From Pyrinomonas methylaliphatogenes (GTDB lineage: Bacteria > Acidobacteriota > Blastocatellia > Pyrinomonadales > Pyrinomonadaceae), in assembly GCF_000820845.2 (NCBI RefSeq), contig NZ_CBXV010000007.1, positions 186,082 through 250,081 on the forward strand: 64,000 nucleotides of DNA. The letters run 5' to 3'. A model generated the notes under the pieces. That model did no database searches, was not told the DNA's origin, and saw only the letters and a program-made list of their open reading frames with translations. The position numbers were made by a program, and so were the translations under genes. Positions within the stretch are counted from its first letter, which is position 1. Every line of letters starts with the position of its first letter. This document shows, one piece after another, positions 56,578-61,539 of this stretch.

Positions 56578-57228
56578 TCAACGCCGCTTCGCCTTCTGTT
56601 CAGCTTCGGCGATGAGTTCGCCGAAGCGCTGGCGGGCGCTGGCGATATCCGCTCGGCGCAGGGTTTGGAGTATGTTCGAATCGACGAGGCGGTACCACAA
56701 TTCAGTGCGCGCTGTCAGATCGGGGACGCGCCGGGCGATCTCTTCGCGCATCTCGCCGGCGAGTTCGAGAAAAGCGGCGTATTCTGGGCCGACCTCGGCG
56801 GCTATCCGATCGCGCAAACGTACCGCGAGCGCCGGAGCCTTGCCAGAAGTCGAGATCGCGACGATGAGATCGCCTTGCCGATGAACGGCTCCGGCGATGA
56901 AACTGCAATGTGGCACATCGTCCACGGCGTTCAAGAAGATGTGCCGCTCTTCGGCCTCTTCCCAGATGGCGTGATTGATCGTGCGCTCTTCGCAGCAAAT
57001 CGCCAACCAGGCGCCCTCGAGATCGCCGCGCTGATAGTTCCGGCGGATGGCTTCGATCTTCCCTTCCGCCGCTAAACCTTCGAGTCTCGGAGTGAGCGCT
57101 TTCCCGATGACCGTGACTCGAGCGCCGGCCTCAAGCAACGCCCGAACCTTCGCTTCAGCTATCTCGTTGCCGCCGATGACGACGCAACGTCGATCGCGCA
57201 AATTGAGGAAGACTGGATAATAGCTCAT
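56578..57228 (-). CDS. precorrin-2 dehydrogenase/ferrochelatase (Met8/CysG N-terminal type)
   Basis: This 216-residue enzyme oxidises precorrin-2 with NAD and may insert iron to give siroheme. The nucleotide motif is CVVIGGNEIAEAKVRALLEAGARV (given in part as VVIGGNEIAEAKVRALLEAG), and ISTSGKAPALAVRLRDRI and DVPHCSFI are typical of the CysG N-terminal domain. There is no C-terminal methyltransferase domain, so SUMT must be elsewhere. Last gene of the minus-strand sulfur run; its product is the cofactor of the sulfite reductase two genes up. Confidence 0.93.
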   Translation of the reverse strand: MSYYPVFLNLRDRRCVVIGGNEIAEAKVRALLEAGARVTVIGKALTPRLEGLAAEGKIEAIRRNYQRGDLEGAWLAICCEERTINHAIWEEAEERHIFLNAVDDVPHCSFIAGAVHRQGDLIVAISTSGKAPALAVRLRDRIAAEVGPEYAAFLELAGEMREEIARRVPDLTARTELWYRLVDSNILQTLRRADIASARQRFGELIAEAEQKAKRR

Positions 57229-57302: not shown

Positions 57303-57770
57303 TTAACCTGCGCTCAGGCTTTCGATTTGCACGCCATCGGCTCGTATCGCCAAAGTGATCGCTACGCCCTCGCTGCTGAGATGGAGCGTGAAGTGGCCCA
57401 GCGTGCGCATCTCCACGCGCACGCTGTCCAATCGACGCCCGATCAATGCTTGAAGGGCGCGGTTGACCGCTGCGATCTGCTCGCGAAGCTCGCGCCCGCG
57501 CGGAGTGTGGAGTAGTAGTCGCGTCCAGAGCCTCTCGCCCTCTGCCCCGGAGCGTTGTCGCGCGCGCCCGGTCTGCAACACGAGCACGGCGAGACCTTCT
57601 AAAACGTCGATCAATTCTGCCGGAATGGCCCCTTCGCGGGCTGCTTCGGCTAATAAAAGGGCGCGCGATCTTCGCACGCCCGATAAAGCTTCAGCTAAAG
57701 CCGAGGCCTCTTCGGCTATCGATGTGGCCTCCTCTTCGGTGAGCTTTAAGCCTTCGATCTCCTCAGTCAA
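57303..57770 (-). CDS. unknown protein in the sulfur/siroheme run
   Basis: About 155 residues if the TTG at 57770 is used, 17 nt after the APS reductase stop; the frame runs open further upstream into that gene. I do not recognise it. A helical N-terminal part (LTEEEATSIAEEASALAEAL) that may form a coiled coil is followed by a Leu/Arg-rich middle (LEGLAVLVLQTGRARQRSGA) and a beta-like C-terminus (HLSSEGVAITLAIRADGVQ). No signal, membrane segment or metal motif is seen. Its position between APS reductase and the siroheme gene suggests a part in the same pathway, which is inference. Confidence 0.5.
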   Translation of the reverse strand: MTEEIEGLKLTEEEATSIAEEASALAEALSGVRRSRALLLAEAAREGAIPAELIDVLEGLAVLVLQTGRARQRSGAEGERLWTRLLLHTPRGRELREQIAAVNRALQALIGRRLDSVRVEMRTLGHFTLHLSSEGVAITLAIRADGVQIESLSAG

Positions 57771-57787: not shown

Positions 57788-58594
57788 TCAGTTGCTTACT
57801 TGATGCTTCTCTGTCGCACCGTGTCCGAGTATGGCGTGCGCTTCGTGTTCGAAGCCGCCGGTCTCGATCGGGCAGTGAATGCCGCACTCTTTCGGCGCGC
57901 CCTGCTCCCACCACCATCGACCCGCGCGATCATCTTCCCCGGGTTGAATCGGGCGCGTGCAAGGATCGCAGCCGATGCTCGTGTAACCCTGGGCGTAAAG
58001 CGGATGCGTGGGGACGTCGTTATCCTCCAGATAGCCCCACACTTCCTCTTTGGTCCAATCGGCCAGCGGATTGACTTTCACGATGCCGTCGTGATCGTGG
58101 TCCAGTTCGACCTTGCGGATGTTGGCGCGCGAAGCCCATTGCTCGCGGCGTAGGCCGGTGATCCAAGCATCCAAACCTTCGAGCGCGCGCACGAGGGGGC
58201 GCACCTTGCGTACTTGACAGCACTGGAGTCGAAGCGGCACGGAACGATAGAAGAGGTTCACGCCGTGCTGTCGAACTAAAGCCTCCACTTCGTGGCGGTC
58301 CGGAAAGATGATCTCGAAGTTGATTTGCGGGTAGTGCTCTCGCACTTGATCCATGAAGGCGTAGGTCGCCTGTGGCAAGCGTCCGGTGTCAACTGTGATG
58401 ACGCGGACATCCGGGCGAAGGCGCGCCGCCATGTCGAGGATCGCCATGCCCTCAGCTTGTAAGGCGGTGACGACCGCCACGCGATCGCCGAAAGTCTCCA
58501 GCGCCCAAGCGATCACCTCTTGAGGATCGTGGTCGTCTAATTCCATGGCGATCTCGCCGATCTCCAAATCATCGAACGTCACGCGATGTGTCAT
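57788..58594 (-). CDS. cysH: adenylylsulfate (APS) reductase
   Basis: This 268-residue enzyme reduces APS to sulfite with thioredoxin. It has the four [4Fe-4S] Cys that separate APS reductases from PAPS reductases: QCCQVRK (C125/C126) and CDPCTRP (C209/C212). The catalytic Cys is in KECGIHC (C237). The PP-loop-like ITVDTGRLP and the WASRANIRKVELD region fit. GGAGG precedes the ATG. Lies 19 bp after the sulfite reductase gene. Confidence 0.95.
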   Translation of the reverse strand: MTHRVTFDDLEIGEIAMELDDHDPQEVIAWALETFGDRVAVVTALQAEGMAILDMAARLRPDVRVITVDTGRLPQATYAFMDQVREHYPQINFEIIFPDRHEVEALVRQHGVNLFYRSVPLRLQCCQVRKVRPLVRALEGLDAWITGLRREQWASRANIRKVELDHDHDGIVKVNPLADWTKEEVWGYLEDNDVPTHPLYAQGYTSIGCDPCTRPIQPGEDDRAGRWWWEQGAPKECGIHCPIETGGFEHEAHAILGHGATEKHQVSN

Positions 58595-58613: not shown

Positions 58614-60548
58614 TCATCCGCCCGATAACGCCGGAAGGATGATCAACTCTTGACCCGCTGCCAAAGGCGCATCGAGTTCGCCCAGGCCGCGCACGTCCTC
58701 TTCGCCGATGAAGAGATTGATCGATGGAAGCAGCGTCCCGTCGGGGGCGACGATCTGGTCCACCAGACGCGGATAACGCTGGCGCAAGGCTTCCAAAGCT
58801 TCGCGCACCGTTCGCGCTTCGACTTCGATGCGATCGGCGCCTTCGGAAAATTGCAGCAGCATTCCGGGAACGCAGACGACCGGACGCTGCGCTCGCTCCT
58901 CAACGGCGTAACTCATCTCGCCGAGCGCGATCGCGCGCAATTCATCATCCGTATGCGCGTCGGCGAAGGCGCGGAAATCGAAATCTTCCCCGCGTTTCGC
59001 TCGAAGCGTGAGCCACGCGCCGACGAGCCGGCAAATGACCTCGGTGATTTGATCTTCGGGCAGGCGGCGCAACAGCGGCTTGCCGATCGCCGTCTTCGTC
59101 CCTAAGCCGCCGCGCAAACAGACGTCATAAGCTTCGACGCGCACGCCTTTGACCGGATGCGTGGTCGTCGTCCCCTGCAATCCAATGTCGCCGACCCAGT
59201 GATGAGCACAGGCGTGCGGGCAGCCATCCATGAAGATCCGCAGGTCTTGTACGGCGTCTCCAAATCTCAGTTCGAGCTCAGCGAGGATCTCCTTGAGTTT
59301 GCCCTTCGTCTCGGCCACCGAATAGTTGCAGAAGCGGTGATCGGTACATGCGATCGAGCGCCCATATACTTTGTTGAGCTGCGGTTCGAACTCGATCCGT
59401 GCTAACTCCCGCGCCAGATGCGCCAATCGTTCTTCTGGAACTCCGGTCACGATGAGGTTCTGCATCCGCGTGAAGCGCACATCGCCGGCGAATTCGCCGA
59501 CCAGTTCGCCAAGGGCGATCAATTGATCGCCACGCACCCAACCCATCGGGACCGGAACGCCAACGTAATAAAAACCTTCCTGCTTCTGCGGATGTATGCC
59601 GAGATGATCCGTATCGGCGGAAGGCGACGGAGCCTGTCCATCTTCGAGCCTTCTTCCGAGCCTCTCTTCGACCATCGCGCGCACGCCCTCAGGCCCGTAA
59701 TCGTCGACCAAGAACTTGATGCGTGCCTTGGCGCGGCTCACGCGATAGCGCAAATTGCTCTGCCACGTGTCGGTGATGGCGCGGAGGACCTCCACGGCCT
59801 CTTCCGGAGCGATGAAGACGCCCAAATCGCGCGAAATGCGCGGCGTCGAAGATAGTCCCCCGCCAACGCGCACAGCAAAACCGGGACGCCCATCCTTGAT
59901 CGTGCCGACGAGCGCCACGTCATGGATCTCCGGCGCGTTGCACTGGGCTGGACAAGCGCTGATCGTGTACTTGTGTTTGCGCGGCAAGTTCGAGTAGTCG
60001 CGATTGCCGTAGAAGAACCGGACCACTTCGGCAATCACCGGTCGCACATCGAATAGCTCATCGCGATCGACGCCGGCGACCGGACAACTCGTCACGTTGC
60101 GTACGGTATCGCCTTCGCCTCCCACCGTGGTGAGTCCTGCCGCTTGAATCGCGTCGAGCACTTGGGGCAACTCTTCGAGCCTCACCCAGTGAAACTGTAT
60201 GCCTTGACGGGTGGTCAACTCGCCGTAGTTCTTGCCGTATCGCCGCGAAAGCTCCCCAACGGCGATCAACTGCTGTGGGGTGATGCGCCCGCCGGGAACT
60301 TTGATGCGAACCATGAAGGTCCCGACCTTCGGCTTATCGTGGGTCAAGCCCCACCAGTTGAGCCGAACGATATCCTCTTCAGGAATCGCCTCGTAACCGC
60401 GAGCGATCATCTCGGGAAGTTCCTTGACGATATCGAGCGGGAACTTCTCCTGCTTCATGCGCTCGATCGAATTGCGCTTGAGCACAAGATCCCAAGTCGG
60501 CTCAACCGCTCTGCTCGTTCCACCGATTGCCGTCTGTTTCGCTATCAT
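58614..60548 (-). CDS. siroheme sulfite (nitrite) reductase fused to a MoaD-like domain
   Basis: This 644-residue protein has the two-repeat architecture of ferredoxin-type sulfite/nitrite reductases (about 55-550). The [4Fe-4S]-siroheme Cys are C401 and C407 (CTDHRFC) and C443 and C447 (CPHAC). TTRQGIQFHWVRL and CPAQCNAPEIHD are further family strings. Beyond ~555 there is an extra ~89 residues with beta-grasp features: VVCVPGMLLQFSEGADRIEV, VREALEALRQRYPRL, LLPSINLFIGEEDV and AGQELIILPALSGG at the very end. This looks like a MoaD/ThiS-type sulfur carrier with its terminal GG. Being next to APS reductase favours sulfite over nitrite as substrate. Divergent from hemD. Confidence 0.9.
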   Translation of the reverse strand: MIAKQTAIGGTSRAVEPTWDLVLKRNSIERMKQEKFPLDIVKELPEMIARGYEAIPEEDIVRLNWWGLTHDKPKVGTFMVRIKVPGGRITPQQLIAVGELSRRYGKNYGELTTRQGIQFHWVRLEELPQVLDAIQAAGLTTVGGEGDTVRNVTSCPVAGVDRDELFDVRPVIAEVVRFFYGNRDYSNLPRKHKYTISACPAQCNAPEIHDVALVGTIKDGRPGFAVRVGGGLSSTPRISRDLGVFIAPEEAVEVLRAITDTWQSNLRYRVSRAKARIKFLVDDYGPEGVRAMVEERLGRRLEDGQAPSPSADTDHLGIHPQKQEGFYYVGVPVPMGWVRGDQLIALGELVGEFAGDVRFTRMQNLIVTGVPEERLAHLARELARIEFEPQLNKVYGRSIACTDHRFCNYSVAETKGKLKEILAELELRFGDAVQDLRIFMDGCPHACAHHWVGDIGLQGTTTTHPVKGVRVEAYDVCLRGGLGTKTAIGKPLLRRLPEDQITEVICRLVGAWLTLRAKRGEDFDFRAFADAHTDDELRAIALGEMSYAVEERAQRPVVCVPGMLLQFSEGADRIEVEARTVREALEALRQRYPRLVDQIVAPDGTLLPSINLFIGEEDVRGLGELDAPLAAGQELIILPALSGG

Positions 60549-60596: not shown

Positions 60597-60644
60597 TTGT
60601 CAATATAGCGGAGGGAATGTAAATTATATTGCCAAAGTTGTCAA
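60597..60644. promoter_or_regulatory. overlapping divergent promoters of sulfite reductase and hemD
   Basis: Minus strand: TTGACA (60644-60639) and TACATT (60621-60616), 17 bp apart, toward the sulfite reductase. Plus strand: TTGTCA (60597-60602) and TAAATT (60620-60625), 17 bp apart, toward hemD. The -10 elements overlap, so the two promoters compete. CAATATA (60601-60607) and TATATTG (60625-60631) form an inverted repeat between them that could be an operator. Confidence 0.6.
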
Positions 60645-60672: not shown

Positions 60673-61539
60673 ATGTTCGCGGATACGCTTTTCGTCGGTT
60701 TCGATGGACTTCGCGTCGTCTCTTTCGAAAGTCGCCGCCGTGATGAGATGGCGCGGCTCATCCGCAATTACGGCGGCGAACCTCTGGTCGCGCCGTCCAT
60801 GCGCGAGGTGCCGTTGGACGGTAACGTGGAGGCCGAGCGGTTCGCGTGTGCGCTTCTCGCCGGCGATTTGGACATGGTCATCTTTCTGACGGGAGTCGGA
60901 GCGCGCTCTCTCTGGCGCACGATCACAGTTCGCCACTCGCCCGCGCGATTGACCGAAGCTTTGTCGCGGATAATCATCGCCGCCCGTGGCCCGAAACCGG
61001 CGGCGGCGCTCAGGGAGTTGGGCATACGGGTTGATGTGACGACCGGAGAGCCGCATACGTGGCGCGAGTTGCTCGCCGAGTTCGACGCGCGTCAACTTCT
61101 GCGCGAAGGATTGCGTGTCGCCATTCAAGAGTATGGCGTATCGAATGAGGAGCTAGTGCGGGAATTGGAACGGCGCGGCGCGCTCGTGCGGCGCATTCCG
61201 GTCTATCAGTGGGCTTTCCCGGAAGATATAGCTCCGCTTCGGCAAGCGGTCGAAGCGATCATCGAGGGCAGAGTTGATGTCGCGCTCTTTACATCTTCCG
61301 CGCAGGTTGCGCATCTTCTGCGGTTCGCTGCCGAGCTCGGGGTGGAGGAAAGATTGCGCGCAGCTTTCGGGCGCATCGCGGTCGCTTCGATCGGACCGGT
61401 CACCAGCGAGGCACTGCGCGAATGCGGGCTGCCGAGCGATATGGAGCCATCGCGCTCAAAGATGGGCGTTCTCGTCAGAGAGGCTGCCGAGCGCAGCCAC
61501 GATCTCTTGAAAGAGAAGCGAGCTATTGATCGTCAATAA
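60673..61539 (+). CDS. hemD: uroporphyrinogen-III synthase
   Basis: This 288-residue protein is read from the ATG at 60673, preceded by GAGG. It makes uroporphyrinogen III, the branch point of heme, siroheme and B12. The HemD fold shows in LRVVSFESRRRDEMARLIRN, YGGEPLVAPSMREVPL and the later VALFTSSAQVAHLLR and AVASIGPVTSEALRECGL. Divergent from the sulfite reductase, which uses siroheme made from its product, so the pairing makes sense. Ends 34 bp from the convergent porin gene. Confidence 0.92.
   Translation: MFADTLFVGFDGLRVVSFESRRRDEMARLIRNYGGEPLVAPSMREVPLDGNVEAERFACALLAGDLDMVIFLTGVGARSLWRTITVRHSPARLTEALSRIIIAARGPKPAAALRELGIRVDVTTGEPHTWRELLAEFDARQLLREGLRVAIQEYGVSNEELVRELERRGALVRRIPVYQWAFPEDIAPLRQAVEAIIEGRVDVALFTSSAQVAHLLRFAAELGVEERLRAAFGRIAVASIGPVTSEALRECGLPSDMEPSRSKMGVLVREAAERSHDLLKEKRAIDRQ

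Follow-up and report, generated by a model that had tools for sequence, protein, structure and literature searches.

The gene at 58614-60548 on the reverse strand of the 64,000-nucleotide stretch of DNA analysed here (the window), from the soil bacterium Pyrinomonas methylaliphatogenes, encodes a complete siroheme sulfite reductase carrying a CysO-type sulfur-carrier domain at its C-terminus, and the protein is confirmed as a real fusion. CysO is a small ubiquitin-like protein whose usual task is to carry sulfur to cysteine synthesis. The frame is open from an ATG at 60548 to a stop at 58614 and specifies 644 amino acids ending in ILPALSGG, with the stop codon (58614..58616) abutting the terminal Gly. 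The reductase part, of the siroheme/[4Fe-4S] NirA/SirA type, occupies residues ~1-549 (58902..60548, reverse strand) as defined by Pfam, fold and invariant residues, and the beta-grasp carrier domain with its C-terminal Gly-Gly occupies residues ~553-644 (58617..58892, reverse strand), as defined by Pfam ThiS, CysO structures in the PDB and the glycine pair of the aligned homologs. Along the protein Pfam places NIR_SIR_ferr and NIR_SIR twice each and then ThiS at 575-644, and a poorly ordered linker at ~545-552 precedes a tail of ~89-92 residues. An earlier note on this DNA had read the gene as a complete sulfite reductase with a beta-grasp-like tail ending in LSGG, and this reading is borne out by the frame, by the ThiS match and by the sequence and fold matches to CysO. 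The possibility that the tail is a product of chance or of a frame artefact is ruled out by the profile, the fold and the 19 homologs.

The tail belongs with CysO by several comparisons. It scores 31.4 bits against PF02597 (ThiS; cut-off 22.5), and NCBIfam finds a SAMP1-type similarity at 575-644 that lies under the cut-off of that model. Aligned with the CysO part of the CysO-MoeZ protein encoded in the same genome, the tail reaches a z of ~25 (1000 shuffles), as against a pair score of z ~5 with the genome's own MoaD and no alignment with its own ThiS. Searches against CysO chains in the PDB return E values of 5e-8 and 2.5e-6, the closest solved relatives by sequence being Amycolatopsis CysO (4n6e) and Mycobacterium tuberculosis CysO (3dwg). 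The full-length AlphaFold2 model (mean pLDDT 79.9) mostly reaches 73-94 in the blocks of the tail, with values <50 for the linker at 545-552 and for the last three residues, and Foldseek superposes the tail on CysO chains 3dwg_C, 3dwm_A and 4n6e_B with a target TM of 0.87-0.90; the beta-grasp fold proposed for the tail is thus upheld by structure prediction. A tree built from 71 carrier domains gathers 20/20 tails fused to sulfite reductase (SiR) into a single clade (100/99) nested in the CysO group and puts MoaD on a very long branch, the deeper forks being unsure because the alignment has only 89 columns. Identification of the tail as ThiS or MoaD is ruled out by the pair scores and the tree. 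A carrier that is specifically CysO-like favours cysteine as the destination of the sulfur over molybdenum cofactor (MoCo), thiamine and homocysteine, so that cysteine is retained from the earlier suggestion of cysteine, homocysteine or cofactor synthesis and the other outlets become less favoured.

The glycine pair, whose conservation among fused homologs had been put forward as a check on a carrier role, is invariant in 19/19 aligned fused proteins and forms the exact C-terminus in 16/19, as a figure within one clade; 8 of ~92 tail positions are invariant in the same alignment. In a comparison of the window's gene with its same-genus homolog, dN/dS is ~0.16 across the tail and ~0.11 across the reductase part, both values being rough because synonymous sites are saturated. 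To judge from these sequences the tail is under purifying selection, and a decaying domain is ruled out by dN/dS.

In two actinobacterial fused carriers the chain runs past the glycines, as GG-AR (L127) and GG-AV (L128), and these ends look like precursors made for trimming. An Anaerolineae metagenome-assembled genome holds a 926-aa SiR-CysO-CysH frame (L137:8323-11103, the same gene as L050), in which the glycine pair is followed by Ser, then a linker and then a whole CysH; this frame may be either a real fusion or the result of a lost stop. The two additional residues in two homologs and the CysH after the glycines in one suggest processing by a JAMM peptidase, which is a candidate for the enzyme that prepares extended carriers. 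A JAMM-family match occurs in 20/20 genomes of the set searched (above cut-off in 19/20), which is compatible with such processing, JAMM genes being common. The SiR-CysO-CysH frame resembles MoaX of M. tuberculosis in being a fused carrier with an internal GG followed by Ser, although MoaX joins MoaD to MoaE and serves molybdopterin synthesis. MoaX is cut between Gly82 and Ser83, and this cleavage is needed for its function (PMC4326299).

The reductase part has as its nearest fold M. tuberculosis NirA/SirA (PDB 1zj8; TM 0.84 normalised by target), which has no carrier domain. Two NIR_SIR_ferr/NIR_SIR repeats and the four cluster cysteines, both characteristic of NirA/SirA-type reductases, are present, and C401, C407, C443 and C447 are invariant among the 19 aligned homologs together with R81, R150, K191 and K193. 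K193 aligns with Asn226 of tobacco nitrite reductase (NiR), for which the N226K mutant is PDB 3vlx, and Lys occupies this position in all homologs. This lysine, together with the neighbouring cysH, favours sulfite over nitrite as substrate, and the reductase is accordingly predicted to be an assimilatory sulfite reductase of the NirA/SirA type.

The next gene of the operon is cysH, for a (P)APS reductase (57788..58594, reverse strand; NCBIfam PRK02090 / TIGR02055 above cut-off), and its order relative to the fusion is the same in other fused loci wherever the contig extends that far. It is followed by ORF3 (57303..57770, reverse strand), a conserved uncharacterised frame of ~155 aa with a likely TTG start at 57770 and homologs located after cysH, and by a gene for a protein with the siroheme synthase N-terminal domain (precorrin-2 dehydrogenase/ferrochelatase; 56578..57228, reverse strand; Pfam NAD_binding_7, CysG_dimeriser and Sirohm_synth_M, TIGR01470). 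Upstream and divergent lies hemD (60691..61539, forward strand, start approximate; Pfam HEM4), for the uroporphyrinogen-III synthase of the siroheme precursor pathway. A pattern search finds the promoter-like hexamers TTGACA-17-TACATT upstream of the fusion gene (60616..60644, reverse strand), a weak indication given that three sites of such a pattern occur in the region against 1.5 expected. A homolog of ORF3 stands directly 3' of cysH in 15 fused loci besides that of the window and in an unfused sister operon (L014), but none turned up next to the other acidobacterial reductases that were examined. No family in Pfam or NCBIfam matches ORF3 above its cut-off. The predicted structure (pLDDT 92.9) consists of a helical part and a four-stranded sheet, for which fold and PDB-profile searches returned no convincing PDB relative. 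In two acidobacterial genomes ORF3 is fused to the APS kinase CysC (L133:11448-12509 and L135:4403-5476), which ties ORF3 to sulfate activation.

The search for similar fusions proposed in the earlier note was productive, and the 19 aligned fused homologs come from Acidobacteriota, Chloroflexota, Actinomycetota and Tectomicrobia. Genomes with a fused protein number 6/296 in Actinomycetota, 4/400 in Chloroflexota and 4/396 in Acidobacteriota, counts that take in the centre genomes G136 and G133 and the source genome itself. The fusion also occurs in Tectomicrobia, in further Chloroflexota and in one Nitriliruptoraceae genome; an Armatimonadota candidate lies on a contig that ends before the tail region. 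Among 60 close relatives it is found only in the same-genus genome, and on plasmid records only unfused reductases appear among the 15 matches listed. The reductase tree unites the fused enzymes in a single clade (100/100), whose sister is the unfused reductase of the L014 operon, from a related acidobacterium. The fused proteins group as a single clade whether the tree is built from the reductase or from the carrier, so the fusion has a single origin; neither tree supports repeated independent fusions. The combination of patchy spread and one origin suggests that the fusion has moved by horizontal transfer.

The E1, CysM and JAMM partners that a CysO carrier would use are all encoded in the genome. 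The earlier note had pointed to a neighbouring E1 or JAMM gene, and both are found with cysM in a cluster of cysM, a JAMM gene (HxH...S..D motif intact) and a CysO-MoeZ-rhodanese fusion on the same contig, though ~15 kb from the sulfite reductase gene and not adjacent to it. Other fused genomes likewise have their E1 or CysO-CysM cluster away from the fusion, and neither E1 nor JAMM adjoins it in the fused loci fetched. PDB searches place the genome's CysM nearest to 2jc3 and 2bht, both chains of cysteine synthase B (CysM), and not to M. tuberculosis CysM. The genome encodes two ThiF-family proteins and two close cysteine synthases, one of them CysK-like, the second E1 and the CysK-like protein having been identified from sequence by eye. 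Four ThiS-family domains are present (a ThiS with an extension, CysO-MoeZ, MoaD-MoaE and the reductase tail), and of these only the tail ends exactly in GG. The GG is internal in both the CysO-MoeZ and the MoaD-MoaE fusion, so that the CysO of CysO-MoeZ has to function either after cleavage or within the intact fusion. The arrangement with CysO at the N-terminus of MoeZ-rhodanese (L002:1489-2955) is seen here and in many relatives. The ThiS encoded beside thiG (L001:1450-1749, reverse strand) is extended far beyond GGG (FGGKLSAHRLFDLDRSS), and its Gly end is consequently not exposed. In a related acidobacterium (L036, genome G058) a CysO-like domain ending IIPSIAGG lies mid-way in a 619-aa open frame. 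A second CysO, free or fused to MoeZ, is encoded in many fused genomes.

The reading that is somewhat favoured is that MoeZ, acting in trans, uses sulfur from the attached reductase to thiocarboxylate the CysO tail, which then feeds CysM. CysH, encoded next door, would supply sulfite, from which the reductase would make sulfide or persulfide-level sulfur; MoeZ, acting as E1, would adenylate the terminal Gly of the tail, and the reductase-made sulfur, either directly or by way of the rhodanese cysteine of MoeZ, would turn the adenylated Gly into a thiocarboxylate. CysM would then move this sulfur onto activated serine, after which cysteine would be freed by the JAMM peptidase, an enzyme that would first have trimmed any residues following the GG. 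The tether would keep the sulfur acceptor close to its source. An E1 in trans is required before any thiocarboxylate forms, and since it must reach the tail, the benefit of the tether would be proximity and not a closed channel. The scheme follows precedent in mycobacteria, where MoeZR thiocarboxylates CysO, CysM uses CysO with O-phosphoserine and Mec releases cysteine (PMC3227635). According to the same 2011 paper, it was not known where the sulfur for CysO comes from (PMC3227635). In 2026, four assimilatory sulfite reductases were reported to form zero-valent sulfur directly (PMC13188885); if this holds for the Pyrinomonas enzyme, which was not among the four tested, the rhodanese route becomes easier.

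A carrier role is supported by the operon, which couples the fusion with cysH and siroheme synthesis, whereas E1, JAMM and CysM lie outside it. Relatives without the fusion commonly have the cluster of cysM, JAMM and CysO-MoeZ as well, and its co-occurrence therefore adds little. Free sulfide could serve instead, given the CysK-like synthase, and the rhodanese domain of MoeZ takes persulfide sulfur, not sulfide. Because many fused genomes also have a free or MoeZ-fused CysO, CysM may draw mainly on a substrate other than the tail. A wider proposal is doubtful: in it the CysO pathway would physiologically obtain its sulfur from the reductase, which would load its own tethered carrier (with MoeZ in trans) and so take sulfur protein-bound from sulfite to cysteine with little free sulfide, and ORF3 would be an unrecognised partner in this transfer.

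Other functions of the tail are each considered unlikely. The thiocarboxylated tail could serve another acceptor, namely molybdopterin synthase (through MoaE), homocysteine synthesis or tRNA thiolation: mycobacterial MoeZR sulfurates MoaD proteins as well (PMC3227635), the GG of the genome's MoaD-MoaE fusion is internal, and Iyer et al. connect such operons with O-acetylhomoserine sulfhydrylase (PMC1779556). This is improbable given that the tail groups with CysO and not MoaD, that its ILPALSGG end is CysO-like and that no moa or met gene is seen in the window's fusion operon. A docking or sensing module, which would recruit MoeZ or CysM or report sulfur status without carrying sulfur, would accord with a possible scaffold role of tethered carriers, with the second CysO of many fused genomes and with the disordered linker. 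A pure dock would have no need of an exposed GG, yet this pair is invariant while most tail positions vary, which leaves this reading about as improbable as an alternative acceptor.

It is less likely still that the gene is a co-expression device from which proteolysis of the linker frees an ordinary CysO uncoupled from the reductase. The variable linker with its low model confidence and the precedent of fused MoaX, which works only once cleaved (PMC4326299), would fit, but the MoaX cut falls after GG, on the opposite side of the carrier domain, and the aligned homologs show no conserved cleavage motif in the linker that leads into the carrier. The least probable reading is a chiefly nitrite-reducing enzyme with an incidental carrier, for although the top NCBIfam score belongs to a ferredoxin-nitrite reductase model (under cut-off), the lysine at the Asn226 position in all homologs (compare N226K in 3vlx) and the operon partner cysH both point away from it.

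Fusions of this kind were already known, since Iyer, Burroughs and Aravind in 2006 described actinobacterial sulfite reductases, from Nocardioides and Acidothermus, with a ThiS/MoaD-like domain fused C-terminally, and predicted that assimilated sulfur is passed to the carrier (PMC1779556). By their published description those proteins share the architecture of the Pyrinomonas protein; the operons listed with them include JAB, E1 and SirA, whereas the fusion operon of Pyrinomonas, an acidobacterium, has neither JAB nor E1. Among the open-access papers searched, none after 2006 was seen to describe the fusion. Within the reach of these searches, what is new is its occurrence in Acidobacteriota, Chloroflexota and Tectomicrobia, its single origin, the CysO identity of the carrier and the GG statistics, along with the variants that have an extended GG or CysH behind it (SiR-CysO-CysH) and the ORF3 family linked to the fusion.

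A reductase joined to a CysO domain, with a GG invariant across phyla, is a candidate sulfur source for CysO, and provides one protein on which that source could be tested by mass spectrometry. The carriers with GG exposed, with GG followed by two residues and with GG followed by CysH offer a means of testing whether carriers of this kind are prepared by JAMM enzymes. With the M. tuberculosis CysO/CysM/Mec/MoeZR pathway, Pyrinomonas shares the CysO fold, the GG end and the genes for CysM, JAMM and MoeZ-rhodanese, but it carries this carrier on a sulfite reductase and its other CysO on MoeZ. HcyS of Wolinella is likewise a carrier encoded in a sulfate-assimilation operon, with a C-terminus trimmed by a JAMM enzyme, but it is a free protein and serves homocysteine rather than cysteine synthesis.
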